Shown: in pieces, positions 33,396-54,639 of the stretch
How positions within the stretch are numbered: the stretch's first letter is position 1
How the letters are laid out: every line of letters starts with the position of its first letter
From: Acaryochloris sp. CCMEE 5410
GTDB taxonomy: Bacteria; Cyanobacteriota; Cyanobacteriia; Thermosynechococcales; Thermosynechococcaceae
Length of the DNA stretch: 64,000 bases
Direction of reading: 5' to 3'
Assembly (NCBI RefSeq): GCF_000238775.2
Contig: NZ_AFEJ02000001.1
Location: 3,782,001 to 3,846,000, forward strand
Program-made: the position numbers and the translations under genes
Notes under the pieces: generated by a model
Seen by the model: the letters and a program-made list of their open reading frames with translations, nothing else
The model's database searches: none
What the model was told of the DNA's origin: nothing

Positions 33396-34070
33396 CTATT
33401 CGCCGATGGTCACTTCCGCGGGTGGTAAAGTGCCAATGCGATCAAAGGGGAGAAAACGAAAGACCGCTCGTCCTACTAGATCGGCATGGGCAACTAATCC
33501 CCAACAGCGGCCATCATAGCTATTGCCTCGGTTATCGCCTAACACAAGGTAATGCTTGTCTGGAATCGTTTGAGGCTTTTCTAAAAAGATAGGAACGGGC
33601 GGTTCAATGGGCTGGCTATCGACATCTGAAGTGACATAATTGTTACGACAGTGGTCTTCGCTAGGTCCAACCGTGACGCCTTCAGCGGTGTAATTTTCTT
33701 TAGTGGGCTGATTGTTGACCCAAACCACCCCATTTTTGATTTCAACTTGATCACCAGGGACGCCCACGACCCGTTTAATAAACGCTTCTTTAAAATTGGC
33801 TCGCTTTAAGGATTCGGTGGGATTGAACACCACTACATCACCCCGTTCAGGATCCCGAAAACGATAGGTGACTTTATCAATGATCAAACGATCATGAATT
33901 TGCAAAGTGGGTTCCATCGACCCAGATGGAATAAAGCGGGCTTCTGCGACAAAAGTGCGAATTCCAAATGCCAAAAGTAGACTTAACCCGACCGTCTTGG
34001 CTGCTTCCACCCACCAAGATTCTTCTGGTTGTTCCGTTGGTTTCAGATCAGGGGGTTGGGATTGCGTCAT
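33396..34070 (-). CDS. lepB: Signal peptidase I, copy 1
   Basis: This membrane serine protease cuts signal peptides from exported and thylakoid-lumen proteins. A single N-terminal helix (VGLSLLLAFGIRTFVAEARF) precedes the nucleophile box PSGSMEPTLQIHDRLIIDKV. The general-base lysine is in AFIKRVVGVPGDQVEIKNG. The C-terminal box is YLVLGDNRGNSYDGRCWGLV. At 224 residues the length is normal. It has a close paralogue directly upstream at 34192-34800, so the pair arose by tandem duplication. Cyanobacteria often keep two LepB enzymes. Confidence 0.95.
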   Translation of the reverse strand: MTQSQPPDLKPTEQPEESWWVEAAKTVGLSLLLAFGIRTFVAEARFIPSGSMEPTLQIHDRLIIDKVTYRFRDPERGDVVVFNPTESLKRANFKEAFIKRVVGVPGDQVEIKNGVVWVNNQPTKENYTAEGVTVGPSEDHCRNNYVTSDVDSQPIEPPVPIFLEKPQTIPDKHYLVLGDNRGNSYDGRCWGLVAHADLVGRAVFRFLPFDRIGTLPPAEVTIGE

Positions 34071-34191: not shown

Positions 34192-34800
34192 CTACTCTAA
34201 ATTTCCGATTCGGTGAACCGGCCAATAGCGAAAGACTGCTCGACCCAATAAATCTGAACGAGATACTAATCCCCAACAGCGGCCATCGTAGCTGTTGAGA
34301 CGATTATCACCCAGAACGAGATAGTGGTCTGCAGGTACCACTTGGGGCAAAGCCAGGAAGGATTGAGATAGAGAGGGTGGACAGACTTGAACAGATGTTT
34401 TGGCCTTGTGAGCCACATATTGTTCTCGAATCTTGACCTGATTGCGATAGACAGCGCCATCTTTAAGCTCTAATTGATCTCCCGGGATGCCAATCACGCG
34501 TTTAATAATCGTGTCCATGGAGAGTGGAGCACCCTGTCGATCGGTATCCTGTCGTAAAGCCTGGGGTGGACGGAAAACAATAATATCTCCCCGTTGAGGG
34601 GCATTAAATTGGTAAGTGACTTTATCGATAATCAAGCGATCGTGAATTTGCAGCGTTGGCTCCATGGACCCTGAAGGGATAAAGCGAGCCTCGGCGACAA
34701 AAGACCGAATACCAAAGGCCAACAACAAGCTGAGTCCCATCGCTTTGGCCGCTTCCCGCCATCCCACTTTTGTAGAGAATAAAAATGACTTTTTCGGCAT
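34192..34800 (-). CDS. lepB: Signal peptidase I, copy 2
   Basis: This is a second type I signal peptidase of 202 residues, with one N-terminal helix (AMGLSLLLAFGIRSFVAEAR). It has the Ser box SGSMEPTLQIHDRLIIDKVT, the Lys box TIIKRVIGIPGDQLELKDG and YLVLGDNRLNSYDGRCWGLV. Between the boxes it differs from copy 1 (for example VCPPSLSQSFLALPQVVPAD), which suggests different substrates or membranes. The spacing of 121 bases between the two genes allows a separate promoter for copy 1. Confidence 0.95.
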   Translation of the reverse strand: MPKKSFLFSTKVGWREAAKAMGLSLLLAFGIRSFVAEARFIPSGSMEPTLQIHDRLIIDKVTYQFNAPQRGDIIVFRPPQALRQDTDRQGAPLSMDTIIKRVIGIPGDQLELKDGAVYRNQVKIREQYVAHKAKTSVQVCPPSLSQSFLALPQVVPADHYLVLGDNRLNSYDGRCWGLVSRSDLLGRAVFRYWPVHRIGNLE

Positions 34801-36742: not shown

Positions 36743-36947
36743 CTCTAAATGTACTATCGATGCTGTAAATAGAAGAACTCTAATCAATTAAGTCTTCTCA
36801 AAAATTCTGAATTTTCAGCTATCTTTGCTAATCAATAAGATTAGCGATTGGTAATGGCTAAAAAGAACTACAAGGTCAAAGCCCTTTTTCTACAAGGGTT
36901 TCTAATCGATAGTCACGAAGAATCCTCTAACGCTTATGAAAGAAGGG

Positions 36948-37367
36948 CTATGGAGTAATAGATTCTGATAAGAGACCAGTGCCAGGTTGTAAAGCATTCC
37001 CTGGCACTGGATTAGGCGATAGAGAATGTGGTGCTTTCGCTTCAGCCTTTTTTAGATTTTTCACTTCTAAAAGATATGTCAGAATCGCATTCCAAAATCC
37101 TGAACCTCCACTAGCTAACAGTCCAAGCACAACAAAAGACAAATTATCTATATCTACTGGCAAAGTATCTTTTGAAAGGAAGGCTGTAAGTACACCAGAA
37201 AAAACTGCAAGTATTTGAAGAAGTGATCTTCGAATTCCTTCTTTCTTAGGAGTACTTTTTTCTTCATTAAGCCAAGGTAAAATACCTTTGATAATTTCAA
37301 CGAGGCGTTCTGACGCAATGCTCAGTGCCAATATGAAACCAATAACTTCAACAATCCTATCAATCAT
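36948..37367 (-). CDS. Small membrane protein, holin-like candidate
   Basis: The 139-residue product has two to three hydrophobic segments (IVEVIGFILALSIASERLVE, LLQILAVFSGVLTAF and LSFVVLGLLASGGSGFWNAI) and a Pro-rich, charged tail. The order of helix, basic loop and helix is compatible with a phage holin or a small anchor, but no family match is certain. It is the last gene of the AT-rich minus-strand cassette. Its final codons hold an 11-bp inverted repeat (CCAGTGCCAGG at 36976 and its complement at 37000-37010), which could act as an intragenic terminator. Confidence 0.55.
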   Translation of the reverse strand: MIDRIVEVIGFILALSIASERLVEIIKGILPWLNEEKSTPKKEGIRRSLLQILAVFSGVLTAFLSKDTLPVDIDNLSFVVLGLLASGGSGFWNAILTYLLEVKNLKKAEAKAPHSLSPNPVPGNALQPGTGLLSESITP

Positions 37368-37402
37368 AAAACATACTCACAAAAGAGTTAATAACTTTTT
37401 AG

Positions 37403-39055
37403 TCAAAAATCAAGTAGCAAAAAGCTTGTGTTTGCACAAATAGTAACCTCTGCATCTTCTGAAATAGGAAATGGACCATCAGTCTCTGGAGCACTACCCA
37501 TTTGGTACTTATAAATGCCTCGAGGTACGAATCGATATCCTGTATCTGTGTTAAAAAATAATTGTGCTTTATTTTTATTGTCAATATCTTGACGTGAACA
37601 ATCTTTTTCCATTATCAAAGAAATAGGATTAATAGAAGAATTGTTCCATTTTATAAATGCAAGATTTGATGAAATTTCATCACTCACTTTTCCCCAGTCA
37701 CCACCAGTCTCATTATTATCAACTATCAAAGACTTAATTTGTTTTTTCCCGCCAATAAGTTGTGATAAATCTAAAGAAATTAAGCCAGCAGGATCAATAG
37801 AAGTACTCTCATTTTGTTCAGAGATTCTAGCACCAGCTGAAAAGGTTAATACAGAGTATTGAAGGCTAGGACCAATATAGAGAGGAGTTGTACCTATTGT
37901 ACCTACACCAAATATGACACCTCCTTTTGCTCGACCGATGTCAAACACTTCTAAGTTGACACCTGAAATAGGTTCTACAAATCCATCCCCAATTAAGCCG
38001 CCAGTTATGATACTTGCTTCTGTATTGCTTCCGAATAAATTACTACTGTCTGTTGGATTGAAACCCCCCAAAAAAGATATAGCTGTTTCTAATTCACTAG
38101 GTGCTGTACTATCTAAAAGGGATTGCACATTTGGTGGTAAATCAATAGAAAATTGTGGTGGCAAGAATGTTAGGTTTGGCTGTAGTATGCCGACGGTACC
38201 TTCTCCAGGAGTAAACTGCATATTGACTGTTATTGTTTTTTCTTTGGTATCACCTGCGTTAGGGTAAGTCAGTTTTAATGGTTTAGCAATTGCTTTAGCT
38301 GAGAATCGATAGTAGGATGTATCTTTTGAAATTTTGTATTTGTAAACTTTGATTTTCCATTCAATACCCTCTGATATATATTTGGGGAAATCTCCTTGTG
38401 CTCCTTCAGCCTCAATGGCATAAGTAATTCCACTACTAGCTAATAAAGCAGTTAATTGTAGATGATCTCTCAGTAAACTAAAATATTGTGGTGTTGGTAT
38501 TGATGTAAGTGCTAGATTAAATCCCTTACCTTGTTCATCCACCCAGAAACCTTGAAATTTTTTTAATTCTTTACTCCATATTTCAAGAAATTTAATTTGA
38601 GATGAATCGTTAATATTTTCAGTTGGATTCAGTCTTTGGCTCTCTGATGCTTCAACTGAGTGAAAGTTACTCAGATTTGATAAGTCGATCATCAGGGCTT
38701 CTTGTAGCTCATTCTTACATTCCTTAGATAAAGAGTTTATCCATTTTTCGGAAACACTGAGATCTGTATTTTTAATTGAACAGGTAATGACCTTTCCATT
38801 TGTTGGGAAAGGCGTTTTTGAAATATTAGGTGGTGGTAGTAGTTCCCACTCCAGTTGAATAGTTGCTTGTTTTGCATTCTTGACATAGTTAACAATTCCG
38901 TTTTTAATCGATGCAGTAATAGCGCTTGGAGCATTGCTAATATCAAATCCAGAAGTAGAATTATCTGACGAATCAGCACTACCTTCTTGTGAAAATGCAG
39001 CAGATCCTGTAAACATGCTGATGCATACTGTTAATGCAATAAGCTTATATTTCAT
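37403..39055 (-). CDS. Large exported protein of unknown function, 550 residues
   Basis: The ATG at 39055 opens MKYKLIALTVCISMFTGSAA followed by FSQEG, a Sec signal peptide with cleavage near FS-QE. The body is Ser/Asn/Thr-rich. It has long beta-prone stretches and a late segment with alternating hydrophobic residues (GGVIFGVGTIGTTPLYIGPS, LQYSVLTFSAGARI) like an outer-membrane strand pair. Two or more cysteine pairs (ITCSIKNTD, SKECKNE; DCSRQDI, TICANTS) could be disulfides. I do not recognise the family. The low-GC codon use matches the whole cassette and differs from ilvD next door. It starts 22 bases after the stop of the gene upstream. Confidence 0.6.
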   Translation of the reverse strand: MKYKLIALTVCISMFTGSAAFSQEGSADSSDNSTSGFDISNAPSAITASIKNGIVNYVKNAKQATIQLEWELLPPPNISKTPFPTNGKVITCSIKNTDLSVSEKWINSLSKECKNELQEALMIDLSNLSNFHSVEASESQRLNPTENINDSSQIKFLEIWSKELKKFQGFWVDEQGKGFNLALTSIPTPQYFSLLRDHLQLTALLASSGITYAIEAEGAQGDFPKYISEGIEWKIKVYKYKISKDTSYYRFSAKAIAKPLKLTYPNAGDTKEKTITVNMQFTPGEGTVGILQPNLTFLPPQFSIDLPPNVQSLLDSTAPSELETAISFLGGFNPTDSSNLFGSNTEASIITGGLIGDGFVEPISGVNLEVFDIGRAKGGVIFGVGTIGTTPLYIGPSLQYSVLTFSAGARISEQNESTSIDPAGLISLDLSQLIGGKKQIKSLIVDNNETGGDWGKVSDEISSNLAFIKWNNSSINPISLIMEKDCSRQDIDNKNKAQLFFNTDTGYRFVPRGIYKYQMGSAPETDGPFPISEDAEVTICANTSFLLLDF

Positions 39056-39077
39056 TTTATAAATACTTCCTATTGAG

Positions 39078-39680
39078 TTAACCAATTAGATGTGATGGAA
39101 AAACCATTGCATCACAAGTACCATCTAGTAGATTTTGTGTAGCAATAAGCATTCCTAATAAAGTACTTGAAGAATCTATAAAAACTCTTCCGCCGTGTAA
39201 TGAAGGAAGAATATGGCGGCTAAAATTTATTTGGTAGTGCTGTACGCGACTACTAAAACTGGGATAGGGGAGAGTAAGAATATTACTTGACACAACGGTA
39301 CCAGGAACACTCCCTACTGTTCCCTGAAATGTAACTGGGCTACCTACAGAGATGGGTGGTGCAGAATCTACTTTGGTATCGGGTATTGCACCTAGAGTTA
39401 CTCCATCTGCAGGCTCAATTTTTACAAATGGTTTTATATTAAATGGATCTGCAGGGGGAAAGTCATAACTCTGGATTGTTCCAACATTTCCGCCAACAGG
39501 AGTCCTAATGGCAAAACCGTTGAGTGTACCTGGCGAGGTTGGCGGTCTAAAACTTGGACTACCATCCAGTTGTATCAAGACAAGATCTAGTGGAGCAATA
39601 ATAACTCCATCTTGTCTGCCATACATTTCAAAAACAGGTGATTGAAGAATAGTAGGTGAATCTACTCGAAAAACTTGCAT
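39078..39680 (-). CDS. Protease-like protein lacking an evident catalytic serine
   Basis: The 200-residue protein has no signal peptide. Several parts recall the chymotrypsin-like fold: IAPLDLVLIQLDGS at the place of a triad aspartate; ISVGSPVTFQGTVGSVPGTV like the KxGxTTGxTxGxV segment; and a C-terminal SLHGGRVFIDSSSTLLGMLI plus MVFPSHLIG like the stretch after GDSG. Where GDSG would be expected the sequence reads LHGG, so a catalytic serine is not evident. This resemblance is weak and by eye. It lies between the M23 peptidase gene and the large exported protein on one strand. Confidence 0.5.
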   Translation of the reverse strand: MQVFRVDSPTILQSPVFEMYGRQDGVIIAPLDLVLIQLDGSPSFRPPTSPGTLNGFAIRTPVGGNVGTIQSYDFPPADPFNIKPFVKIEPADGVTLGAIPDTKVDSAPPISVGSPVTFQGTVGSVPGTVVSSNILTLPYPSFSSRVQHYQINFSRHILPSLHGGRVFIDSSSTLLGMLIATQNLLDGTCDAMVFPSHLIG

Positions 39681-40169
39681 AATTTATCTCACTAATATTT
39701 TTTTCAGAAACTACAAAACCGAAACTAGCGCTAATTCTAATTATCAAAACATCCTTAAACCTTATAGAAATAAGCAGAGAATATTTAAATCTTATTAATT
39801 AAATTACAGTTATAATAATCCTGCATGATTTAAAAGAGAGAGTATCAAGCTATATAAAACCTCTATTTTATTCTGATTTTACTGATGGAATCAGATTGCT
39901 ATATTACTGAAAAATATAATAAAAATCTGAAAGATTTACTAATCAAAAAGTATACGGTAGTGAACTGCAGATTTTACTCTTTTACAGGTTTAGGAACATA
40001 CAATATTTTGCTTTCAAGAAATCTGCGATTATCTGTCAGCTTTAAAAGCACGATTCTAAACTTATTTGTGCTTGTTTTTTTATTTAGTTAATATTCAAAG
40101 AATGCTTACCACGCTCAAATTAACTGCAGCAATCGTTTTATATTATCTAGTGAAAGTATTTTTTTGAAT
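39681..40169. other. AT-rich intergenic stretch inside the lysis-like cassette
   Basis: This 489-base, very AT-rich gap separates the M23 peptidase from the protease-like gene. One plus-strand frame of 68 codons (39885-40091) has a hydrophobic end but no support; its codons mirror the AT bias. A promoter for the downstream minus-strand genes is likely here, but no clear boxes can be singled out. The gap implies that the cassette has at least two transcription units. Confidence 0.45.
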
Positions 40170-40889
40170 TTAGTTCAATAAACTAAACTCTATACCTCTA
40201 GCAGGAAAAGCAACCTTATCACGGGGGTTAATAAAACTACCATTTTGTAAAATCTCAAAGTGAAGATGCGGTCCTGTCACTCCACCTGTTTGACCTACAC
40301 GACCGATCAAATCACCTTGATTGACAGTGTCACCAACGTTAACGAAAAAATTTTCCATATGCGCATAAGCACTTGAGAATATATTGTTATGCTGAATTTC
40401 AATAAAGTTTCCATAACCTGAAACGAATCCAGCTATGCTAACAGTTCCTCCTGATGCAGCAAAAATTGGCTTTCGATTATTTCCACCAATATCGATTCCC
40501 GCATGTAGCCTATTGAGACCAGTCAGCGGATGTATTCTATATCCGAACTCACTTGTAACAACACCTTGTTCTACTGGACGAATAAAAAAATTATCTTGAC
40601 CAGGCCCAGCAGAAAAGCTTGGTGGAGGAGCATCAAGTAGTTTTTGTGCAAAGGTTGGACCAATAAGTTGAGTTTGCATATTATCTAAGAACACAGCATT
40701 ACAAAATTTATTTAGAGCTATTTCCGTTCTTGGTCCATACAAGCCATCTAATATAAAAGTATATGCTCCAATATCTTTTAATTTAGACTGAATATTTTCT
40801 AACAGAATAGTCTTCCCTTCTCGAAATGTTTCTAAACTAATGACAGCTTGTTTATCAATTATCTGCTGAAGTGTTTCTATTGTTGCCAT
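40170..40889 (-). CDS. M23-family metallopeptidase with N-terminal peptidoglycan-binding-like domain
   Basis: This 239-residue enzyme would cut cross-bridges in peptidoglycan using Zn2+. Residues about 15-85 look like a PG_binding_1 helical unit (SKLKDIGAYTFILDGLYGPR, TEIALNKFC). The LytM/M23 domain starts at VVTSEFGYRIHPLTGLNRLH. Its zinc ligands are in RLHAGIDIGG (H and D) and TGPHLHFEILQNG (second H of HLH). It has no signal peptide, as in phage endopeptidases delivered through a holin. It sits 49 bases after the GH104 endolysin gene on the same strand. Confidence 0.88.
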   Translation of the reverse strand: MATIETLQQIIDKQAVISLETFREGKTILLENIQSKLKDIGAYTFILDGLYGPRTEIALNKFCNAVFLDNMQTQLIGPTFAQKLLDAPPPSFSAGPGQDNFFIRPVEQGVVTSEFGYRIHPLTGLNRLHAGIDIGGNNRKPIFAASGGTVSIAGFVSGYGNFIEIQHNNIFSSAYAHMENFFVNVGDTVNQGDLIGRVGQTGGVTGPHLHFEILQNGSFINPRDKVAFPARGIEFSLLN

Positions 40890-40938
40890 AATAAATTCCT
40901 CAAAAGCTTATAATTTGAATCTTAAGTCTTGAAATCAG

Positions 40939-41655
40939 CTAGATCTGTAGTGTTCCTCCAGCTTGAACAAAAGCATTTTTCACTTGTTGTAATGTTTTTA
41001 TAGGCTGACCATATTGGCCAGGAGGAAGTGAAGCCCACTCAAAACTCACACCATTATCAGTAGCAGGATCATACAGTGCTTTCTCAATATTACCTGCATC
41101 CACTTCATCTAAAGAACCTCTATTTTTTATTAAAAATAATGCAGCCCTTTCCTGGCTAGAAGGTGAGAAATCAGGAAGGTTGAGTGAGAGTTGGCAAAAA
41201 TCCCATGTGGTTGATAAAAATTGGTAACGCCCTGCAGCATCTGAGCATAAATTGCCCGAACAACGGATACGCCGCGGATGGTCAGAAAAATTTGTAAAAC
41301 GGTCAAAGGTAAAGATTATGTCATATCCAGTTCGAGCACTATTCAAGTTTTGATCAGTACCTTCTGCAAACGCAACCATATCTAAAAATGCTTGACGCTG
41401 ATCTGATAGATTTGATTCTGTAGGAATACCAAAAACTGTGACGTGATCTTTGAAGGCAAACCAATTAAAGAAACCTAATTTTGGAGATTTTAGTTCAAAC
41501 TCCCAATGATTATTGGATGCATTACGAATCCAATTTACTCCAATACTGTTGCTTAAAGATAATGAAAATTTCTGTGAATTGGGAAGTTCAGTACTATTAA
41601 CTGGTAGTCGCTTGATAACGGTAGGGACTTTAGCTCTTACACTTATTTCTGACAT
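40939..41655 (-). CDS. GH104 lysozyme-like endolysin (lambda R type)
   Basis: This is a lytic transglycosylase of the lambda endolysin type, 238 residues. The catalytic domain begins RQAFLDMVAFAEGTDQNLNS, with the family glutamate in AEGTD. It continues TGYDIIFTFDRFTNFSDHPR, AAGRYQFLSTTWDFC, LPDFSPSSQERAALFLIKNR and FEWASLPPGQYGQP, closely parallel to lambda R. An extra N-terminal domain of about 85 residues (VPTVIKRLPVNSTELPNSQK to FNWFAFKDHVTVFG) is not in lambda R. It may be a wall-binding or SH3-like module. There is no signal peptide. It heads the minus-strand cassette. Confidence 0.88.
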   Translation of the reverse strand: MSEISVRAKVPTVIKRLPVNSTELPNSQKFSLSLSNSIGVNWIRNASNNHWEFELKSPKLGFFNWFAFKDHVTVFGIPTESNLSDQRQAFLDMVAFAEGTDQNLNSARTGYDIIFTFDRFTNFSDHPRRIRCSGNLCSDAAGRYQFLSTTWDFCQLSLNLPDFSPSSQERAALFLIKNRGSLDEVDAGNIEKALYDPATDNGVSFEWASLPPGQYGQPIKTLQQVKNAFVQAGGTLQI

Positions 41656-42179
41656 ATATAATACCTTAATAATGTGCTAAAAATATAGGCATGGAAATAA
41701 TAATAGAATATGAATCTTCAAAAAATATTTATTTTGACTCAAACACTAGAGTAATTTTTATGTGATTATTACTTATATATTGAGTCTCATGCTGGAGCTT
41801 CAGTAAAAGCGATAAATCAAGACATTCATATAGAACAAACTAGTTAATCAATAAAGCTATTTAATTAAATTATTTAAGAATTTAGCTTAATTAATAGATT
41901 ACAGCTCATCACGGGGAATCAATAGTATAAAAAAGTGTCAAAAAGTGACTAATTTAATATGAAGAACTATTTAGAGTTTTTGCTTTGAGCAAGGCATTCA
42001 AGGATTGCGAGTTGAGCTTTCTACTGTGAGCTTGGAATATCAATAGCCTCTATAGAGCTATCGAAAAACCGTTAAGTTTGCATAAATATCACATCAAGAA
42101 CTGACAGTTAGTACATAAGGATGTGATCTAAGTTACATCTAGTTTTGTTGGAATACCCTATTCGGTGTGGACAATTACG
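41656..42179. other. AT-rich divergent promoter region
   Basis: These 524 bases separate the endolysin gene (minus) from the first STAND gene (plus) and so must hold both promoters. The sequence is strongly AT-rich with many TTAATT-like words. No terminator hairpin, tRNA or repeat family member stands out. The boundary between the low-GC cassette and the more normal downstream sequence lies in its right half. Confidence 0.5.
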
Positions 42180-43679
42180 ATGACTATTGAGGATGCCTTA
42201 GCCCTAATTGATACAGCTCTTGATCCCTCTTGCTTCAAAAATCTCCATCAAGATATCTTTCGCTTATCCTGGCAGGGCAAATCCTATCAAGAAATAGCCG
42301 AAACCTGTGGCTATGATACTGATTATGTCCGCCATGTCGGCTATCAACTTTGGCAAAACCTCTCTCAAGCTTTGGCACAAAAAGTGACTAAAAGGAACTT
42401 GCAAGTTGTGTTCCGTCGCTTAGAACAACAAAGCCGAATCGCAAGTAATGAAGTAGAAGAGATTGCTAGTCTTATTCTCACGCCTCAACATGCCAAAAGC
42501 AATATCAACCCTTACCCCAATAAAGTTGAACTCATCTCAGATCAAACCACCTACCCACTCCTATGGCCTGATTCACCCAACCATCTCTATACCAAACATA
42601 GTCAGCATTTTGTCGGTCGCCAACAGGAACAGCAAACTCTGTGTCAGTGGCTAACTCGCACAGGACAAGACCAAACACTTCCTGTTCAACTCATTAGTCT
42701 TCTAGGCATGGCAGGAATTGGCAAAACCTCCCTAGTTCAACAAGTGATTCATCAGATACAAGGCCACTTTCAAAAGGTGATTTGGTGCTCCCTTCGTAAT
42801 GCTTCAACCTTTACTGAAACCTTTGCCAACATAGTCAATACGGATGACCAAGAAGCCCTACAATGGCCTACTTATATTGATGCCCAAATTGAAATTCTGA
42901 TGCGCTATTTCTGTCAGCATCGGTGCTTATTGGTGTTAGATAACTTTGAAACCATCTTGCAACCAGGGCAATTGGGAGGACGCTATCAATCGAATTATCA
43001 AGCCTACGGTCAACTCCTCAGGCATCTGATGGATTCCCCTCACCAAAGTTGTGTTCTACTCACCAGTAGAGAACAACCCATTGGCATTAACTTGCGCAAT
43101 CAACCCACCGTTCAAACCCTGTATTTAAAAGGACTTTCATCCTCGGAAACCCACCTCTTCTTGAACCATCAGGAGGTAAAGACAACCCAAACCGGCGCTG
43201 AAACCTTATACGCCTACTATGGTGGCAACCCCTATGCACTTAAAGTCGCAGCAACCAATGTGACATCTTTATTTCACCGCCAAGTTGCTGAATGGATCAA
43301 ACAAGGCAACTTTGTATTTGGAACCATTCAGCAACTCTTAAAACAGCAGCTCCAAAGACTAGCACCTCCCGAGCAGCAGATTGTTAACTTTATTGCTGCA
43401 GAAACAGGCAACGTCACCCTGGATCAACTTCATGCAGCATTAGTCCTCAAAGATCTCGTTTCAACTACCGATCTTTTACCTGCATTGCAATCTCTTCAGA
43501 GTCGTTCTTTACTCTGCAACCAGGAAGATGGTCTACAACTATTGCCGTATCTCCGTGAATATTTGCGTTGTTACCAGACCCTGATTGGTGCAAAACATAG
43601 AGCCAGTACACCCGCAGTATTGACGAGTTTTCAGCCTGCAGCACTTCTCTCTACTTCTCTGCCCTTAGCTCATGGCTAG
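42180..43679 (+). CDS. STAND NTPase without sensor repeats (vMAP-type N-terminus, NB-ARC)
   Basis: This 499-residue signal-transducing ATPase starts with a helical domain (MTIEDALALIDTALDPSCFK, FRLSWQGKSYQEIAETCGYD). That domain is shared with the WD40 STAND protein at 49103 and with vWA-MoxR-associated proteins. The NB-ARC part has FVGRQQEQQTLCQWL, Walker A LLGMAGIGKTSLVQQV, Walker B CLLVLDNFETI, LLTSREQP and GNPYALKVAA. A winged-helix region follows, then the protein ends (STSLPLAHG) without WD40 or TPR repeats. The start ATG at 42180 is preferred to a GTG at 42165. The 3' end overlaps a convergent gene by 15 bases, which suggests a truncated but still open gene. Confidence 0.8.
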   Translation: MTIEDALALIDTALDPSCFKNLHQDIFRLSWQGKSYQEIAETCGYDTDYVRHVGYQLWQNLSQALAQKVTKRNLQVVFRRLEQQSRIASNEVEEIASLILTPQHAKSNINPYPNKVELISDQTTYPLLWPDSPNHLYTKHSQHFVGRQQEQQTLCQWLTRTGQDQTLPVQLISLLGMAGIGKTSLVQQVIHQIQGHFQKVIWCSLRNASTFTETFANIVNTDDQEALQWPTYIDAQIEILMRYFCQHRCLLVLDNFETILQPGQLGGRYQSNYQAYGQLLRHLMDSPHQSCVLLTSREQPIGINLRNQPTVQTLYLKGLSSSETHLFLNHQEVKTTQTGAETLYAYYGGNPYALKVAATNVTSLFHRQVAEWIKQGNFVFGTIQQLLKQQLQRLAPPEQQIVNFIAAETGNVTLDQLHAALVLKDLVSTTDLLPALQSLQSRSLLCNQEDGLQLLPYLREYLRCYQTLIGAKHRASTPAVLTSFQPAALLSTSLPLAHG

Positions 43680-46706: not shown

Positions 46707-48686
46707 CTAGAAATTCTCTTTTCGGTAAGAAAATTGATGTTGATAGCATAGGCGTCTTAACGTGCTAGATAACCCTCTAGGACCACAATAGTAAACGTCG
46801 ACGGGCTCTGTTGGATATTGCTTCTTTAATTGGGTAAAAATCGTATTCCAATCGGGCCGACCAGCCTGAATTTGGTTCTTTAAACCTGTAATTAAATCAA
46901 CCTGATGCTCTTGATGGAGTAGGTCAAAGGCAGCATATGTAGTTAAAAACTGCAGATTACTCCCTTTGGGGGCACCGGTTAAATACAAATTAAGATCAAA
47001 TAAATCAAAACTATCTTCTGCTTCTAGTCGTTGGAACATCTCCAATAACCATTCAAATGAGTCTTGACTGCGATTAAACCAATAGAAATGGACTTTCTGA
47101 AGCTGAAGGAGAGTTGACTCGGCTTGACGCTGATGCAAAATACTTTGTAGTAATGAGGCATAGGGGGTTACGCCAATGCCTCCAGCAATTAAAACGGCAT
47201 ATGTGGATTGATAGATATGGCTGCTGGGGCTGTGATAAGGGCCATCTAAATACACTGGAATTTTGGGCAAAGCAGTCTGACCATTCCGTTTTTCTGTGAA
47301 GTCTCGAAATTGACTATAGAGAGTGCCCGTCCAGCTCCCTAGTGCTCGTATATGTAAAGACAAAGTGTCCTCTCGTTCAGGGGGACTGCTAATCGTAAAA
47401 GGATGCCATTCATAGGTGGCAATATGGGGACATCGTAAATAGAGATAGTCAGATGCTTTGAACGTGAAGTCGTGGGGACGAGCAATTTCTAATGCTAGGA
47501 CATTACTGGGTAAAACTTGGGCATTGACGATATGGGTTTGTTGCGTGCTACGACGATATCGAACAACTTGCTCAATTAGAAAAGCGCCAATGGATACAGC
47601 TGCCCACTTATAAAAATGAGGACCATGTAAAAGCATGAGTCCGATCCAAGGGATATACGCTAAATGCATGGTGAAAAAGAGATTAAAATTCCCCTGCTCT
47701 CGAATAAAAGGTAGGGCAGTAAACCACATTAACAACAGCAAGAGCATCAGCAATAAGCCGGTCCATCCTGAGCCGTAAAGTAAGAAAAGACGTACAGGAT
47801 AATCAATTTGAAAAGCTGCTGTTTCTGCAAGGTGGTTATTCAGATGAGCCACGGTATGGACAAGGCCTAACCCAAAAATCACTTGGCCAACTAGTTTATG
47901 GAATGCAAGATGTTCATCAATGGGTAAATAGTCATTCAGCTTGGTTTTTCTCAGCCATGTCATCCAACGCCGCATGATGGGGACTAAAATCAATGCGCCA
48001 TTAAAATTAAGGGCTAACCCACAGCCTCGAGCTATTCGATACCAAACAGTATGGAGCCTATACTGCGGTAAACGATAGGCGTAACAAAATAAAGCAATAT
48101 TGATTCCAAAATACAGCGCTAGAAATAGAAGCTTAATCCAATTGTTTTGGACATAATGCCATCGCTGTAGCCAATATTCTGGCTGGCTCTGTTGATCTGA
48201 TCTGTCAGACGTTGGCTGCAACCATTGCGCTGGACTGACAGATAATATGTCTTTCAATCGAGGAGATTGGCTTAGTAGATCTTTAAATTCTGATAAGGAT
48301 ATTTCTTCGTTTTGATTAGTATCTGCTTTCTCAAATAGAATATCTCTGACTTGCTGTAGTTGAGCAGTTGAGAGATCAAAGTTACCCTCTCTCAAGCTAC
48401 TTCGAATAAATTTTGCGAGTTCTTGCTTATCAATACAGCCATCATCATTGCCATCATGGAGTTGAAAAGCAAATTCGAGCGGATTCTCTTGCGCTTGATG
48501 AATGCCGCTGTGAAACTCTTCAAAACTAATCCCTTTCGTTTGATCAGCATCAAAAATATGAAATAGACGTTTGCACAAATATTTGTTCGTCAACTCCAAA
48601 GCGATTTGGAATTCTTCAATCGTGAGTCTTAGATCATCGCCAGCATAGTCTTGGAATTTTTGTTCTAATTTTTTTAGGTTATTCAT
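46707..48686 (-). CDS. EF-hand NADPH oxidase-like flavocytochrome (NOX5 type)
   Basis: The 659-residue protein combines three EF-hand loops (DADQTKGISFEE, DGNDDGCIDKQE, DTNQNEEISLSE; residues about 45-140) with a six-helix ferric-reductase/NOX haem domain. Paired histidines are in FHKLVGQVIFGLGLVHTVAH and FTMHLAYIPWIGLMLLHGPH. The FAD site is WHPFTISSPPE. The NADPH site is LIAGGIGVTPYASLLQSILH, with VYYCGPRG near the end. The layout is that of eukaryotic Ca2+-regulated NOX5, which passes electrons across the membrane to O2 to make superoxide. Ca2+ control is inferred from the loops; the second is canonical. No assembly partner is nearby. Confidence 0.88.
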   Translation of the reverse strand: MNNLKKLEQKFQDYAGDDLRLTIEEFQIALELTNKYLCKRLFHIFDADQTKGISFEEFHSGIHQAQENPLEFAFQLHDGNDDGCIDKQELAKFIRSSLREGNFDLSTAQLQQVRDILFEKADTNQNEEISLSEFKDLLSQSPRLKDILSVSPAQWLQPTSDRSDQQSQPEYWLQRWHYVQNNWIKLLFLALYFGINIALFCYAYRLPQYRLHTVWYRIARGCGLALNFNGALILVPIMRRWMTWLRKTKLNDYLPIDEHLAFHKLVGQVIFGLGLVHTVAHLNNHLAETAAFQIDYPVRLFLLYGSGWTGLLLMLLLLLMWFTALPFIREQGNFNLFFTMHLAYIPWIGLMLLHGPHFYKWAAVSIGAFLIEQVVRYRRSTQQTHIVNAQVLPSNVLALEIARPHDFTFKASDYLYLRCPHIATYEWHPFTISSPPEREDTLSLHIRALGSWTGTLYSQFRDFTEKRNGQTALPKIPVYLDGPYHSPSSHIYQSTYAVLIAGGIGVTPYASLLQSILHQRQAESTLLQLQKVHFYWFNRSQDSFEWLLEMFQRLEAEDSFDLFDLNLYLTGAPKGSNLQFLTTYAAFDLLHQEHQVDLITGLKNQIQAGRPDWNTIFTQLKKQYPTEPVDVYYCGPRGLSSTLRRLCYQHQFSYRKENF

Positions 48687-49102
48687 GGCTTGGCTACATG
48701 ATAAAGAAGATTTTGGAGTCTCTAGCTATTGATTAAATCTAGAATTTTAAGATTGATTATTAAAGAAATAAAACGGGATAAATTCTTGAGATTTCATGTA
48801 TAAAATACTATTTATTCTAAATGATATTTAAGCTATATTTAGCTAAAATTTAGAGGGATACTGAGATGTCACTCTTGGGTATGACTGTGACTTAGATTAG
48901 GCTAAAAATAAATAACTTGAACCTATATAATGCTCTATAAGGTTTGAAAATATAAAAATCTCAAAAAATATAAAGATAATGACGATAGTCTATATTTTTT
49001 GAGATTCTGTGTCTAGTAATACATAAAGTCGCTATACTAACGCTGAATAAGAAGAAAATTTTTATTTTCTAGATGTAAAAATATCTTCATATTTTGAATA
49101 TC
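48687..49102. other. AT-rich divergent intergenic region
   Basis: These 416 bases hold the promoters of the oxidase (minus) and the WD40 STAND gene (plus). The region is very AT-rich. Apart from the hairpin at 48957-49006, no gene, tRNA or repeat is visible. Confidence 0.5.
48957..49006. repeat. 16-bp perfect inverted repeat upstream of the WD40 STAND gene
   Basis: AATCTCAAAAAATATA (48957-48972) is exactly complementary to TATATTTTTTGAGATT (48991-49006), with an 18-base spacer. It ends about 96 bases before the STAND start codon. In RNA it would form an A/U-rich hairpin in the leader. It is not followed by a separate T tract. An attenuator, an operator or a trace of a small mobile element are all possible. 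Confidence 0.55.
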
Positions 49103-52100
49103 ATGCTTGACCAATCGTCTAAACATACCTACAACCCTGCAATTAATGATGAAGTAGCTTGGATAGAAACAGTCTTATACCAAGGTAGTGAGAAAAGCTT
49201 AAATGATGTTCAAGTCTTGGTATTAGAACAATCTTGGCAAGGACTAACCTATCAACAAATTGCTGATGAATCGGGTTATGAACATGACTATATTAAGCAG
49301 ATCGGGGCTCAGTTATGGTCACAGTTATCAGAAGTATTACAAACCAAAATCACAAAAAGCAATCTCAAGACGGTTCTTCAGCGTCATTACCACTTACAGA
49401 CGCAAAGCCAAGTATCTAGTTGCACTATAGATTGGGGTACTGCTGCCGATATTCCCCACTTCTATGGTCGTGACTTAGAAGTATCGACTTTGAAGCAGTG
49501 GATTTTAGCGGATCATTGTCGTCTGATCACTGTCCTAGGCGGTGGTGGAATTGGTAAAAGTGCCCTGATCATCCACTTGGCACAATTACTCCATGATCAG
49601 TTTGATGTCTTGATTTGGAGATCACTGAAAACTGAACCCCCCTTTAGTGACTTACTAGTTGATATTCTGAGTCAGCTAGCTCGTTCACCCTCGGAACTCT
49701 TAAAAATTGATACCGATGCCTTACGGATTGAGCAGCTAATGCACTACCTGCAGAATCAGCGATGCTTAATGATTCTCGACAACTTGGATGCCCTCTTTGA
49801 ATTGGGGGGAAGTTGTGGAGAATTCAACCCAGACCAACAATCGTATGCTCTTTGTTTGCAAGCATTAGGTAGTGTGTCTCATCAAAGCTGTGTTGTGGTG
49901 ACGAGTCGTGAACAGCCACAATCTATTGATGAATTAGAAGGTATATCATCCCCAGTCCGTAGTTTAGTACTGGGTGGCCTTGATTTATCGTCTTGTCAGA
50001 AAATATTGGCTTTTAAGGGATTACTAGGTTCTGAAGAAGAAATCAGTAAGCTCAATGACTTTTATCGAGGTAATCCTTTAGCCCTAAAAATTATCTCTAC
50101 GACCATCAAAGACTTATTTCATGGCAATATTTCATTCTTTTTGCGCGAGGGATACGGGGTTTATAAAGGCCTCCGATCACTCTTAGATGAACAGTTTGCC
50201 CGATTATCTGAGATTGAAAAAACGATTTTGTATTGGCTAACGATCAATAGTCAACCCGTATCGATTGATCAACTTTTAGATGATTTACTTCCTCGGCCCT
50301 ACCATAAATCGATTCTAGAAGCCTTAGACTCTCTCCGAAAAAGATCATTGATTGAGACGACTACTATAAGTGAATTTAATACGTCATCTACCCATGAATT
50401 AGCCTACCAATCACTTGAGCAATCTTGTTCAGTAGAGTCTTCTTTAGTAGCAGATGAAGCCCATGATATATCGTATATTAGTTTAAATCTAGATCTGGAT
50501 AGTCAGCATGTAATTGTTTGTGCATATACGCTTCAGCCAGTCTTAGCAGAATACTTAATTGAGCACTTTACTGATTCAATTTTGATAGAAATACTGTCTT
50601 TATCTGTTCAAGATTTTTTGAATCATCCTTTAATTAAAGCTCAGTCTTCAAATAATATTCGTGATATACAATCTCGCTTAATTGTAGGTCCGCTGGTGAC
50701 GCAGCTTATTTCAGAATTAGGCTCTGAAGCAGAAGTTATTCGTCACTTGCATGTCTTATTGGAGCGCTTGTTTGAGCTGCCGAGCCATCAAGTGAAATAT
50801 GCGGGCGGCAATGTGATGAATCTATTTAGATATCTCAAGGCTGATCTAATCGGCTATTCCTTTGCTAAGCTGCCTATTCGTCAGGCAATTCTACAAGATC
50901 TCACCTTACAAAATACTGATTTTTCCGAGGTTGAATTTAGTAAATGCTTATTTGCAAATACATTTGGTGGGATCCTCTGTATTGCTTTTAGTCAAGATGG
51001 TTCTTGCTTTGCGACCAGTGACACGAATGGTAATGTCATTGTTTGGTCCGTGGCTGAGATGAAACCGATTGTCCAGTGCAAAGGACATGATACATGGACA
51101 TGGTCTGTTGCTTTTCACCCACATAAGCCGATGCTTGCAAGTTGTGGAGATGATCTAACTATCCGTCTTTGGGATACGAATAATGGTCATTGCTTAACCA
51201 TTTATCATGGCGGACATACAAGTGTCATTCTAGATTTGGCTTTTAGTCCTGATGGTCAATATCTAGTGTCAACGAGTAATGATACACGGATTAAGATTTG
51301 GGATCTGGCGACTCATACATGTCATCAAACTGTCCACAACAATCAATGTGCTCAGTGCTTGGTGTATGCCTCAGATGGCAACAGTATCTACAGTGGTGGA
51401 GAAGATTGTTGTGTCCGCAAATGGGATGTTTTGAAAGGCGAGTTTATTCAGACCTTTGAAGGACATGCCCATTGGGTGATGGATGTTGCTGTTTCTCAAG
51501 ATAGTCAGTATCTGGCTAGTGCCAGTCTCGATGGTACTGTGAAAGTTTGGGACACTTCGACGGGCCAGTGTTTGCAAACGTTACAAGGGCACCAAGCCTC
51601 AGTTGTTGGAGTTGCATTCAGCCCAGATGCTAAAACCGTCGTTTCCGGGAGTTATGACCAGACTGTAAGGCTTTGGGATTGGGAGTCGGGTCACTGCACT
51701 CAGATTTTGAAGGGACATACGAATCTTATTTGGTCTGTAGATTTTCATCCTTCTAGTCAACTGATAGCCAGCGGTGGTGAAGACTATACAACTCGGTTCT
51801 GGCACACCCGATCAGGTCATTCTGTCGCTACGCTGCAAGGATATAGCAATGCTATTTATGAAATCGCTCTTCATCCTGATAGCGCTGTGCTGGCAAGTGG
51901 TCATGAAGATCAATTGGTGCATCTGTGGGATGTCTCAACGGTGGAAGATGAGACGAATTCATCTCATGGGATTGAACCGTATCAGAGTCTTCGAGGACAT
52001 CATGGACGAGTCATTACAGTGGGCTTTAGTCCTGATGGTGCAATCCTGGCGAGTGGTAGTTTCGATCGCACGATTAAGCTGTGGAACCCAACAACGTTTG

Positions 52101-52849
52101 AATGCATAATGACGCTTCAAGGCCACAAGAGTTGGGTGTGGCACATTGCATTTCATCCCAATAGTCAAATTTTAGCGAGTGCGAGTTATGACAAGACGAT
52201 TCGCTTTTGGGATGTGGATACAGGGAAATGCTTAGAAATTCTAGAATGTGGTGATAAATCTCCTTATCGTTTAGCGTTTAGCCCGAACGGGCAGTGGCTG
52301 GTGAGCGGTGGTTACAAACAATGCCTAAAATTATGGGATGTGAGTTCATGTTCATGTGTGCACACCTGGTCCGTTCATGAAAATAGAATTTGGGCAGTGA
52401 CCTTCAGTGACAACAACCGTTACTTTGCAAGTGCTGGTGAAGACCACAATATTGCAGTGTGGGATGTAGATAGCAAGCAGCAGATCCTAGTTCTGCAAGG
52501 TCATCGGAAATCGGTGCTCAGTCTGCAATTTAGTACAGATGATCGATACCTGTTTAGCAGTAGTGCCGACCATACGATTAAACAATGGGATTTAGCGACG
52601 GGACATTGTCTGCAAACATTTTCAGGACATGAACATTGGGTGAGTTCAATTGTGACCACGGCTGATCATCAGCTATTCAGTGGTAGTAGAGATGGAACGG
52701 TAAGGGTATGGGATTTGAATACTCAGCAGCTGTGGCGTAAGTTAGCGATTCCTCGCCCCTATGCAGGGATGAATATTACGGGGGTTCAGGGAATAACCGA
52801 TGGTCAGCAAAAAGCGCTGATGGCACTTGGGGCTGTGGTCGACGATTGA
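49103..52849 (+). CDS. Giant STAND NTPase with 14 WD40 repeats
   Basis: The 1248-residue protein has three parts. Residues 1-100 form a helical domain like that of the 42180 gene (LVLEQSWQGLTYQQIADESG, KITKSNLKTVLQRHY). Residues about 115-450 form an NB-ARC ATPase with FYGRDLEVSTLKQWI, Walker A VLGGGGIGKSALIIHL, Walker B CLMILDNLDAL, VVTSREQP and GNPLALKIIS. After a pentapeptide-like stretch (LTLQNTDFSEVEFSKCLF), 14 WD40 units run from about residue 620 to 1220, enough for two seven-bladed propellers. The end GMNITGVQGITDGQQKALMA is a tail often seen in such cyanobacterial proteins. STAND proteins oligomerise on ligand binding. The start ATG at 49103 is preferred to a TTG at 49094. Confidence 0.9.
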   Translation: MLDQSSKHTYNPAINDEVAWIETVLYQGSEKSLNDVQVLVLEQSWQGLTYQQIADESGYEHDYIKQIGAQLWSQLSEVLQTKITKSNLKTVLQRHYHLQTQSQVSSCTIDWGTAADIPHFYGRDLEVSTLKQWILADHCRLITVLGGGGIGKSALIIHLAQLLHDQFDVLIWRSLKTEPPFSDLLVDILSQLARSPSELLKIDTDALRIEQLMHYLQNQRCLMILDNLDALFELGGSCGEFNPDQQSYALCLQALGSVSHQSCVVVTSREQPQSIDELEGISSPVRSLVLGGLDLSSCQKILAFKGLLGSEEEISKLNDFYRGNPLALKIISTTIKDLFHGNISFFLREGYGVYKGLRSLLDEQFARLSEIEKTILYWLTINSQPVSIDQLLDDLLPRPYHKSILEALDSLRKRSLIETTTISEFNTSSTHELAYQSLEQSCSVESSLVADEAHDISYISLNLDLDSQHVIVCAYTLQPVLAEYLIEHFTDSILIEILSLSVQDFLNHPLIKAQSSNNIRDIQSRLIVGPLVTQLISELGSEAEVIRHLHVLLERLFELPSHQVKYAGGNVMNLFRYLKADLIGYSFAKLPIRQAILQDLTLQNTDFSEVEFSKCLFANTFGGILCIAFSQDGSCFATSDTNGNVIVWSVAEMKPIVQCKGHDTWTWSVAFHPHKPMLASCGDDLTIRLWDTNNGHCLTIYHGGHTSVILDLAFSPDGQYLVSTSNDTRIKIWDLATHTCHQTVHNNQCAQCLVYASDGNSIYSGGEDCCVRKWDVLKGEFIQTFEGHAHWVMDVAVSQDSQYLASASLDGTVKVWDTSTGQCLQTLQGHQASVVGVAFSPDAKTVVSGSYDQTVRLWDWESGHCTQILKGHTNLIWSVDFHPSSQLIASGGEDYTTRFWHTRSGHSVATLQGYSNAIYEIALHPDSAVLASGHEDQLVHLWDVSTVEDETNSSHGIEPYQSLRGHHGRVITVGFSPDGAILASGSFDRTIKLWNPTTFECIMTLQGHKSWVWHIAFHPNSQILASASYDKTIRFWDVDTGKCLEILECGDKSPYRLAFSPNGQWLVSGGYKQCLKLWDVSSCSCVHTWSVHENRIWAVTFSDNNRYFASAGEDHNIAVWDVDSKQQILVLQGHRKSVLSLQFSTDDRYLFSSSADHTIKQWDLATGHCLQTFSGHEHWVSSIVTTADHQLFSGSRDGTVRVWDLNTQQLWRKLAIPRPYAGMNITGVQGITDGQQKALMALGAVVDD

Positions 52850-53457: not shown

Positions 53458-54639
53458 ATGACAGTTGGTAATTTTAATGAGGTTAACGGTACTAATGGAG
53501 TTGACAACCTAACAGGACAAGATCTCCAAATTCTTTATGGGCTGAATGGTGATGATAGTCTGACGGCAAACACTGGTGTTGCAGGTGCTGATCAGGTGGT
53601 TTGGGCTGTAGGTGGAGATGGTAATGACACTTATACGGTGAACAATAACACTACGCTCATTGTCCAAGAAGATGGGAATTCAGGGGCTGATTCAATTATT
53701 GCTCGAGGCATATCACTGAACGGTGCCAATACGGAAGCAGTCACGATTGAGGGAAGACACTTGCTTGTGCGAGACCTGGTGACTGACCAGCAAGTTCTTA
53801 TCGTCGATGGTGAAGTTCAAGCGAACAGATTGGAATCATTTGAGTTAGCAGATGGGACCTTTACATTTCAGCAAGTCTTAGCCGCTGTTAATGCTGCTAG
53901 TATGGGAGACTTTACGTTTCAGGAACTAGCAGCGATGGGGGTGTTAGATTTTAATCGCATTGGCATTAATCCTAGTGATGTTGATGCTGCTCTTGCAGCT
54001 GTTGACAGTCGTCAAAATGATTTAGTGCAGGCCCATTCAATTGGTGATCCACACATCACGACTTTTGACGGGTTATATTATGACTTCCAAGCGGTTGGAG
54101 AATTTAAGCTGGTTGAGTCTTTGGATACGGGACTTGAAATTCAGGTTCGTCAAGATAATCCAGAAGGCTATGACCATGTGACTGTCAATACTGCACTAGC
54201 AACACAGCTAGGAGATCATCGAATTGAGTTGTATGCAGGTGAAACTCCTCAACTGGAAGTTGATGATGTTTTAGTTAATTTGGCACCTGGTGAGGTTCAG
54301 CTGGTTGGTCCTGGCCGTATTTCCTTAGATAGCTCAGAACATGAAAGTGGATCAACTATTCTGACTTACAGTATCAACTTCGGCAATGGAGAAAAAGTTG
54401 TTACTCATGTCTATGATTCCTTGGGAGGCTATCTAGACCCTTATGTCTCGCTGTATGACAATCAACAAACAGAAGGATTGTTAGGAAATTTCGACGGTAT
54501 TGCAGATAACGATTTGCAATTAGCGAATGGTTCTGTGATTTCAAGACCAGATGATCCCCTGGATTTAAATGGTGCCTATGCTGAGACTTGGCAAATCGAT
54601 AGTAATGATTTGCTGTTCAATGATGTTATGGTTGCCTAA
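53458..54639 (+). CDS. RTX-like protein with a von Willebrand factor type D domain
   Basis: The 393-residue protein starts without a signal peptide: MTVGNFNEVNGTNGVDNLTG followed by YGLNGDDSLTAN and GGDGNDTYTVNNNTT. These Gly/Asp-rich units recall RTX calcium repeats. A linker with LAAMGVLDFNRIGINPSDVD leads to a vWD domain: SIGDPHITTFDGLYYDFQAV at its start and EGLLGNFDGIADNDLQLANG near its end, the family signatures. It ends YAETWQIDSNDLLFNDV. Such proteins are usually exported by a type I system through a C-terminal signal; no transporter is adjacent. A role in adhesion or in a surface layer is inference. Confidence 0.8.
   Translation: MTVGNFNEVNGTNGVDNLTGQDLQILYGLNGDDSLTANTGVAGADQVVWAVGGDGNDTYTVNNNTTLIVQEDGNSGADSIIARGISLNGANTEAVTIEGRHLLVRDLVTDQQVLIVDGEVQANRLESFELADGTFTFQQVLAAVNAASMGDFTFQELAAMGVLDFNRIGINPSDVDAALAAVDSRQNDLVQAHSIGDPHITTFDGLYYDFQAVGEFKLVESLDTGLEIQVRQDNPEGYDHVTVNTALATQLGDHRIELYAGETPQLEVDDVLVNLAPGEVQLVGPGRISLDSSEHESGSTILTYSINFGNGEKVVTHVYDSLGGYLDPYVSLYDNQQTEGLLGNFDGIADNDLQLANGSVISRPDDPLDLNGAYAETWQIDSNDLLFNDVMVA

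Follow-up and report, generated by a model that had tools for sequence, protein, structure and literature searches.

Type 10 secretion systems (T10SS) are defined, in the excerpted text of PMC10109510, by a gene cluster of peptidoglycan hydrolases, a small membrane protein and an exported protein. The nucleoside triphosphate (NTP)-dependent conflict systems of Kaur et al. (2020; PMC7159879, likewise in excerpt) include vWA systems in which trypsin-like domains in the effector position are nearly all inactive, as well as STAND NTPases and, within one system, lysozyme- and papain-like effectors that attack the wall. The locus analysed here is a cassette of five minus-strand genes, p1 to p5, in a 64,000-nucleotide stretch of the genome of Acaryochloris sp. 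CCMEE 5410 (contig NZ_AFEJ02000001.1; this whole stretch is termed the window and its numbering is used throughout). Two of these genes, p3 and p4, form a conserved, patchily distributed module, each family of which is without a usable match in Pfam, NCBIfam or PHROG. All five open reading frames (ORFs) lie, with intact frames, where a reading made from the letters alone (the sequence-only reading) had placed them:

40939..41655, minus strand: p1, GH104 (lambda R type) lysozyme/transglycosylase, assigned by phmmer to 1am7 and by phrog_90
40170..40889, minus strand: p2, M23 endopeptidase-type enzyme with an N-terminal peptidoglycan (PG)-binding-like domain, assigned by PF01551
39078..39680, minus strand: p3, 200-residue predicted chymotrypsin-fold pseudoprotease, first gene of the conserved pair, assigned by AlphaFold2 and Foldseek
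37403..39055, minus strand: p4, 550-residue putative exported protein with a signal-peptide-like N terminus, second gene of the conserved pair
36948..37367, minus strand: p5, 139-residue membrane protein with up to three hydrophobic stretches (hydropathy), candidate holin

The conserved p3-p4 pair

Searches with p3 and p4 led to 15 cyanobacterial loci, distributed as follows (MAG, metagenome-assembled genome):

Various groups: the window; Nostoc N6 plasmid pNPM5 (L007 = L087); Pseudanabaena G148 and G248; Gloeobacterales MAG G134; Gloeobacter-like G073
Further loci: Fischerella G388; Calothrix MAG G389
From the family of the Fischerella genome: G458, G560, G562, G448, G482 and G579; a remnant in G412

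In 13 of the 15 loci p4 is immediately preceded by p3 on the same strand, and these linked copies span four groups, namely the host's own family, the Nostoc/Fischerella family, Pseudanabaena and the Gloeobacter order. The remaining two loci are a contig end, with only 147 bases of contig before p4 (G560), and the remnant, in which one 261-residue ORF matches both the p3 and the p4 profiles. Identities of the two proteins are correlated over 12 shared taxa (Mantel r 0.956, 0/9999 permutations). One copy is carried by a plasmid, pNPM5, whose size and gene counts are given in an excerpt of the genome paper (PMC5987646), and a literature search found no description of the pair. p4 is present in 5/388 genomes of the class and p3 in 4/291 genomes, the own genome included in both counts; p4 also occurs in 10/217 genomes of the Fischerella family, 2/9 of the Gloeobacter order and 2/38 of the Pseudanabaena order, and was found in none of 36 genomes of the family of G138 and in none of the six other genomes of the host genus, which are 82-92% complete. 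A contig scan with the p4 sequence alone found no locus, and with the p4 alignment as query it found five.

The AlphaFold2 model of p3 (predicted local distance difference test, pLDDT, 70.9) gave nine Foldseek matches at E <= 0.001, all of them chymotrypsin-fold proteases, with a best E of 4.2e-5. The top matches are alpha-lytic protease and S. griseus protease B (E 4e-5 to 2e-4, prob 1.00), with a TM-score of only about 0.45; the structural Z reaches 10.2 but at a root-mean-square deviation of 4.8, and Z was not used alone. The Gloeobacter-like copy matches Trypsin_2 below the cut-off (E 0.05), and no meaningful PDB profile match was obtained for p3. Among 13 sequences the position of the catalytic Ser is occupied by His in nine, Arg in two and Ile in one, with Ser only in the Gloeobacter-like copy, and no conserved His is found in the N-terminal part. 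Because the Ser is replaced in 12 of the 13 and a conserved N-terminal His is lacking, p3 is, as judged by its residues, a pseudoprotease. The description of p3 as protease-like in the sequence-only reading therefore stands for the fold and fails for the catalytic residues of an active S1 serine protease. No signal peptide was found in p3. The nonsynonymous:synonymous ratio (dN/dS) is higher in p3 than in p4 in all three close pairs compared (P 0.0045, 0.09 and 0.04); two of them show purifying selection on p3, in the third p3 is indistinguishable from neutral, and its ratio of about 1.5 in Nostoc/Calothrix is not significantly above 1 (P 0.19). The higher p3 ratio would fit a recognition role and also a weaker constraint.

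The p4 frame is also open from a TTG at 39085 (37403-39085); the ATG at 39055, with which a signal-peptide-like stretch begins, is the likelier start. A hydrophobic N terminus of this type was seen by eye in 13/13 p4 homologues, and p4 looks like a Sec-exported protein. Searches of Pfam, PHROGs, NCBIfam and PDB sequences placed it in no family with a useful score; its DUF4859 match (E 0.12) is below the cut-off. PADLOC, like those profile collections, yielded no useful match for p3 or p4.

Wall hydrolases beside the pair

Residues 83-236 of p1, comprising the whole catalytic domain, align with lambda lysozyme 1am7 (phmmer, E 5.7e-31), and p1 matches the endolysin family phrog_90 (E 1.4e-34). 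The Glu of the EGTD motif, the catalytic residue in GH104 lysozymes, is kept. An N-terminal domain of about 80 residues precedes the catalytic part, and residues of about 5-85 weakly match other cyanobacterial proteins. p2 carries a Peptidase_M23 domain (PF01551, E 1.1e-30), aligns with 3slu (E 1.2e-24) and retains the HxxxD and HLH (HxH) zinc motifs of these metallopeptidases. Two different peptidoglycan hydrolases of phage type, with an extra N-terminal domain on the endolysin and a PG-binding unit on the M23 enzyme, had been proposed from the letters and were found here with their catalytic motifs. Hydropathy reveals no hydrophobic stretch in p1 or p2, neither has a recognisable signal peptide, and p1 has no transmembrane stretch.

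GH104 domains are common in cyanobacteria (81/194 class genomes at E 1e-3 or better, many of them weak matches) and were seen by eye in prophage-like, conjugation-like and other settings. The nearest relatives of p1 lie partly in regions that appear prophage-like by eye, with a terminase-like ORF (L063) or integrase-like ORFs (L064). The GH104/M23 genes were considered as the conserved part of the cassette and rejected, since GH104 is widespread in many settings and the p3 and p4 profiles matched none of eight GH104 regions examined. Viral contigs held no confirmed relative of p1 and one distant M23 locus for p2. Genome G008, that of a relative, contains four copies (L059-L062, e.g. L060 252-1417) of a protein of about 80 residues with a hydrophobic stretch followed by a YkuD-like/GH104 protein of about 310 residues; around three of the copies no phage genes could be seen by eye. 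These pairs resemble the cassette in joining a GH104-domain enzyme to a small protein with a hydrophobic stretch and differ from it in the N-terminal domain of the enzyme and in that neither a p3-p4 pair nor an M23 enzyme was seen.

The flanks of the pair are visible in eight lineages: the window, pNPM5, the Fischerella group, Calothrix, G448, G482, Pseudanabaena and G073. G388, G458, G560 and G562 share one synteny and are counted together as the Fischerella group, and G579 and G134 (contig ends) and the G412 remnant were left out of the count; chosen neighbours were scanned with Pfam and the remaining ones inspected by eye. Wall hydrolases adjoin p3-p4 in three of the eight. In the window these are the GH104 and M23 enzymes. 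In pNPM5 six genes lie downstream of the pair, two of which encode GHL10 plus PG_binding_1 and M15 plus PG_binding_1 above the Pfam cut-off, and the other four a PG_binding_1 protein with a sub-threshold M74 match, a sub-threshold GH25, an SH3 protein and a protein without Pfam match. In G073 a Glucosaminidase plus Amidase_3 protein is encoded directly upstream, its gene ending within about 20 bp of the likely start of p3. None of the nine pair-adjacent proteins of the window, pNPM5 and G073 shows a signal peptide at its N terminus by eye; mild hydrophobic peaks occur by hydropathy in N_337, N_SH3 and N_526 of pNPM5. A signal-bearing M23 gene in G248, about 5.5 kb away beyond unrelated genes, was not counted. 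In one Pseudanabaena genome p4 is directly followed by a patatin-like phospholipase gene that is divided between two ORFs (L008 5375-7152).

These neighbourhoods bear on two proposals of the sequence-only reading. It had proposed to ask whether the two proteins without family co-occur elsewhere with GH104 and M23 genes, and the answer is mixed: they do stay together, GH104 or M23 genes do not recur directly beside them, and the Nostoc plasmid and the Gloeobacter-like genome have PG hydrolases of different families next to the two. Its term lysis-like cassette is borne out only in part: what is conserved is p3-p4, the hydrolases being optional.

Two sequence similarities connect parts of these loci. 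The N terminus of p2 resembles the Nostoc plasmid protein N_337 (E 7.5e-5; 32.3 bits versus at most 21.6 in 2000 shuffles); because it also resembles known PG-binding domains, this domain alone would not prove a common origin of the cassettes. The second is an element found before both p1 and p3:

39763..39806, minus strand: 44-nucleotide element, 83 bp upstream of p3
41829..41872, minus strand: second copy of the 44-nucleotide element, 174 bp upstream of p1

The copies are 73% alike (score 20 versus at most 18 in 150 shuffles) and constitute a possible shared control site of p1 and p3. The cassette has no Rfam match.

The STAND gene and the variable ilvD-menG site

Divergently from the cassette runs a STAND gene, and both occupy a site between ilvD and a thioesterase gene:

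42165..43679, plus strand: STAND (NB-ARC) NTPase gene with a helix-turn-helix-like N-terminal region (PF00931, E 1.1e-12), divergent from the cassette
36743..43664, no strand assigned: variable site between ilvD and a thioesterase (menG-like) gene, holding the cassette and the STAND gene

The encoded NTPase is a possible regulator or sensor. STAND genes with the same N-terminal region number 15 in the genome of the window (G000), four each in G148, G248 and Fischerella, three each in Calothrix and G073, and one in pNPM5. One of them lies 2.5 kb from p3 in the window, 0.2 kb in G148, 1.1 kb in G248 and 0.5 kb in pNPM5. Such a gene thus occurs within 2.5 kb of p3 in three of eight lineages (window, pNPM5 and Pseudanabaena), with an estimated P of about 4e-5 that rests on a distance chosen post hoc and on assumed rates for G448 and G482. 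PADLOC gave no match for p1-p5 at E 0.01 and weak matches only for the neighbouring STAND gene. A second STAND-type gene with the same N-terminal region and WD40 repeats is found at 49094-52849 of the window.

The cassette fills a site that is variable, since only about 0.1 kb separates ilvD from the thioesterase gene in the sister genome G005, where the site is empty, and in G001 and G002 it has other contents. In G001 (L073 8129-11444) a pair of 34% GC content (guanine plus cytosine) lies next to ilvD and encodes a 702-residue protein that matches no family and starts with a signal-like stretch, and a 232-residue protein with several transmembrane stretches, which weakly matches a holin profile (E 5e-4). 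In G002 (L075 2194-4211) a lysis-like pair occupies the same slot, consisting of a 504-residue Phage_lysozyme (PF00959) plus YkuD-like protein (YkuD just below the cut-off) and a 167-residue protein with one mildly hydrophobic stretch; no STAND gene is present.

GC content per kb is 0.34-0.36 across 37-42 kb versus 0.52 at 35-36 kb, in ilvD, and mostly 0.42-0.52 in the rest of the window, with a second AT-rich stretch at 48-51 kb (34-40% GC) that contains the WD40-bearing STAND gene. Single cassette genes have 35-41% GC and the two long intergenic stretches of the cassette 26% and 29%. The AT-rich stretch with the cassette was probably acquired from outside. No repeats were found at the cassette ends, and transposase genes lie about 30 kb away in the window; the host assembly comprises 8.09 Mb in 23 contigs.

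Phage structural genes were not recognised by eye in the ORF list of the window, and ten genes flanking the cassette gave no head, tail, packaging or integration family among the PHROGs at E 1e-5. Near the 15 loci no capsid, tail or terminase gene was seen in ORF lists and gene tables inspected by eye; on pNPM5 a single tyrosine recombinase is encoded at a distance of about 10 kb from p3-p4. Searches of 50,697 phage records gave no match to p3, p4 or p5, and a pattern scan found neither p3 nor p4 in viral contigs. An ordinary prophage was rejected on the lack of recognisable phage structural genes near any copy and the absence of p3, p4 and p5 from phage records. The earlier picture of lysis-type enzymes with intact frames and a composition unlike that of ilvD, and with no capsid, tail, terminase or integrase gene, agrees with these results.

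Elsewhere in the window, adjacent signal peptidase I (S26)-like genes lie at 33396-34070 and 34192-34800, the first matching PF10502 and both phrog_15562; 46707-48686 encodes an EF-hand plus ferric reductase/FAD/NAD-binding protein, a NADPH-oxidase (NOX5)-like gene; and 53458-54639 encodes a 393-residue protein with a von Willebrand type D domain.

Readings of the locus and comparison with described systems

The reading we tentatively prefer sees in p3-p4 a conflict or release module directed at the envelope, to which endolysin-type enzymes are recruited. The conserved core of this presumably laterally acquired island would be p3-p4. Of the two proteins, p3 would stay in the cytosol as a chymotrypsin-fold protein without catalytic activity, probably serving as a peptide-binding switch, and p4 would reach the envelope by export. 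In three lineages this core would have gained hydrolases of endolysin type, apparently without signal peptides, that work from inside; they would cross the inner membrane either by way of p5, acting as a holin, or once that membrane is damaged. The enzymes would then cut the wall, with p4 active in the periplasm or outer membrane, and the producing cell would undergo controlled lysis or release, with the neighbouring STAND NTPase as a possible trigger. The analogy is to prokaryotic conflict systems that join trypsin-like domains, STAND proteins and wall-attacking effectors. Support comes from the p3-p4 linkage, the hydrolases in three lineages, the domain common to p2 and N_337, the proximity of STAND genes and the element upstream of p1 and p3. 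Of all this, the p3-p4 module and the repeated presence of wall hydrolases and STAND genes beside it are solid, and joint action in lysis or release is inferred.

Several observations weigh against it. In five of the eight lineages, namely the Fischerella group, Calothrix, G448, G482 and Pseudanabaena, the pair has no hydrolase next to it, so it must work there without one or with enzymes encoded elsewhere; the p4 proteins of Nostoc and Calothrix are 82% alike, yet hydrolases occur only at the Nostoc copy. The chance of at least three hydrolase lineages among eight (P 0.0004-0.02) was computed for a background of 0.02-0.08 per locus that is an assumption and no measurement. Between p2 and p3 lies a gap of 489 bp with 26% GC, because of which the cassette may comprise two transcription units, p1-p2 and p3-p5. 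The possible holin of the sequence-only reading does have hydrophobic stretches, and its profile matches are weak (phrog_20258, E 0.0027; holin phrog_785, E 0.16), so a holin nature of p5 is only faintly suggested; searches of 281 other class genomes and of phages and plasmids brought up no relative of p5. The same STAND gene has different neighbours in G001, a sister genome. Both p3 and p4 are broken or reduced in G458, whose p4 ORF is cut down to 479 residues and whose p4 match contains stops, and in G412. The p4 model is poor (pLDDT 43), too poor for a structure search; its antiparallel strand meander at residues 348-429 might, purely as a suggestion, be membrane beta structure.

Nearly as likely as joint action is that p3 and p4 are self-contained, with an envelope or surface role of their own, for example a pseudoprotease helping or controlling its exported partner, and that the hydrolases, p5 and the STAND gene are passengers gathering in the same variable islands. 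This would suit the pairs that stand alone between unrelated genes in Fischerella, G562 and Calothrix, those in unrelated company in G448 (an RTX protein and a Dyp-type peroxidase) and G482 (a pentapeptide-CHAT protein), the gap between p2 and p3, and the differing gene sets held by the ilvD-menG site in sister genomes. It accounts less well for same-strand hydrolases adjoining the pair repeatedly, in three lineages, for the N-terminal domain common to p2 and N_337, and for the similar element upstream of p1 and p3.

Rather unlikely is a holin/endolysin-dependent (type 10) secretion module in which p5 gives p1 and p2 access to the wall and periplasmic p4 is released as cargo. A small membrane protein, signal-less hydrolases and an exported protein do stand in one short cluster, as described for T10SS in the excerpts of PMC10109510; p5 is no more than a candidate holin and has no relatives found, most p4 copies have no hydrolase neighbour, and p3 has no part in such a scheme. 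An attack and protection set seems improbable, in which the hydrolases would attack neighbouring cells as effectors and p4, once exported, would give periplasmic protection, orphan pairs being kept for that protection. Wall-acting effectors are expected to have exported partners, as in immunity to type VI secretion systems, and here the hydrolases vary while the exported partner is constant and hydrolase-free pairs are common. Immunity proteins, however, are usually specific to their effector, whereas p4 is constant across differing hydrolase families; moreover, no delivery machinery was recognised in the cluster, and p3 is left unexplained. That the lysis genes survived from a former prophage or phage satellite is very improbable, the GH104 relatives of p1 in prophage-like regions (L063 and L064, by eye) being outweighed by the lack of phage structural genes recognisable by eye near the 15 loci, of p3, p4 and p5 in phage records and of p3 and p4 in viral contigs.

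The conflict or release module may be taken further, to a self-lysis (abortive) immune system of cyanobacteria with p3-p4 as its core, although we consider this extension a long shot. The STAND NTPase would sense infection, p3 would recognise a peptide and lift control, and the hydrolases and p4 would lyse the infected cell, with hydrolase-free copies relying on p4 alone or on enzymes encoded elsewhere. What is new is a patchily spread p3-p4 module, one member of which is a dead protease, beside wall-cutting enzymes outside phages in three lineages; if the parts act together, they would constitute a cyanobacterial release or self-lysis system.

Among described systems, the lambda lysis cassette (R endolysin, S holin) is approached through p1, an R-type GH104 enzyme with its catalytic motif, and differs in that no phage is present here, the partner enzyme is of the M23 type and p5 is not a recognisable S holin. 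T10SS (ChiA of Salmonella; TtsA of typhoid toxin), as far as the excerpts extend, likewise combine hydrolases, a small membrane protein and an exported protein without phage structural genes, and peptidoglycan hydrolases are indeed near by in p1 and p2. In contrast to them, the cassette has two hydrolases of different kind and in p5 only a candidate holin, and its conserved core is a pseudoprotease plus an exported protein, mostly without hydrolases. No NucA, the mark of the NucA-trypsin conflict system (system 3 of Kaur et al.), was found among the chosen neighbours scanned with Pfam, and compared with the systems in the excerpted account the pair has no recognisable NucA, EAD1, VMAP, MoxR or vWA component beside it and p4 appears to be exported. 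The p3-p4 loci share with those systems, in the same account, the inactive trypsin-like domain, the STAND NTPase and the wall-attacking enzymes. The pattern recalls both type 10 secretion and the systems of Kaur et al., without qualifying as either on the defining features.

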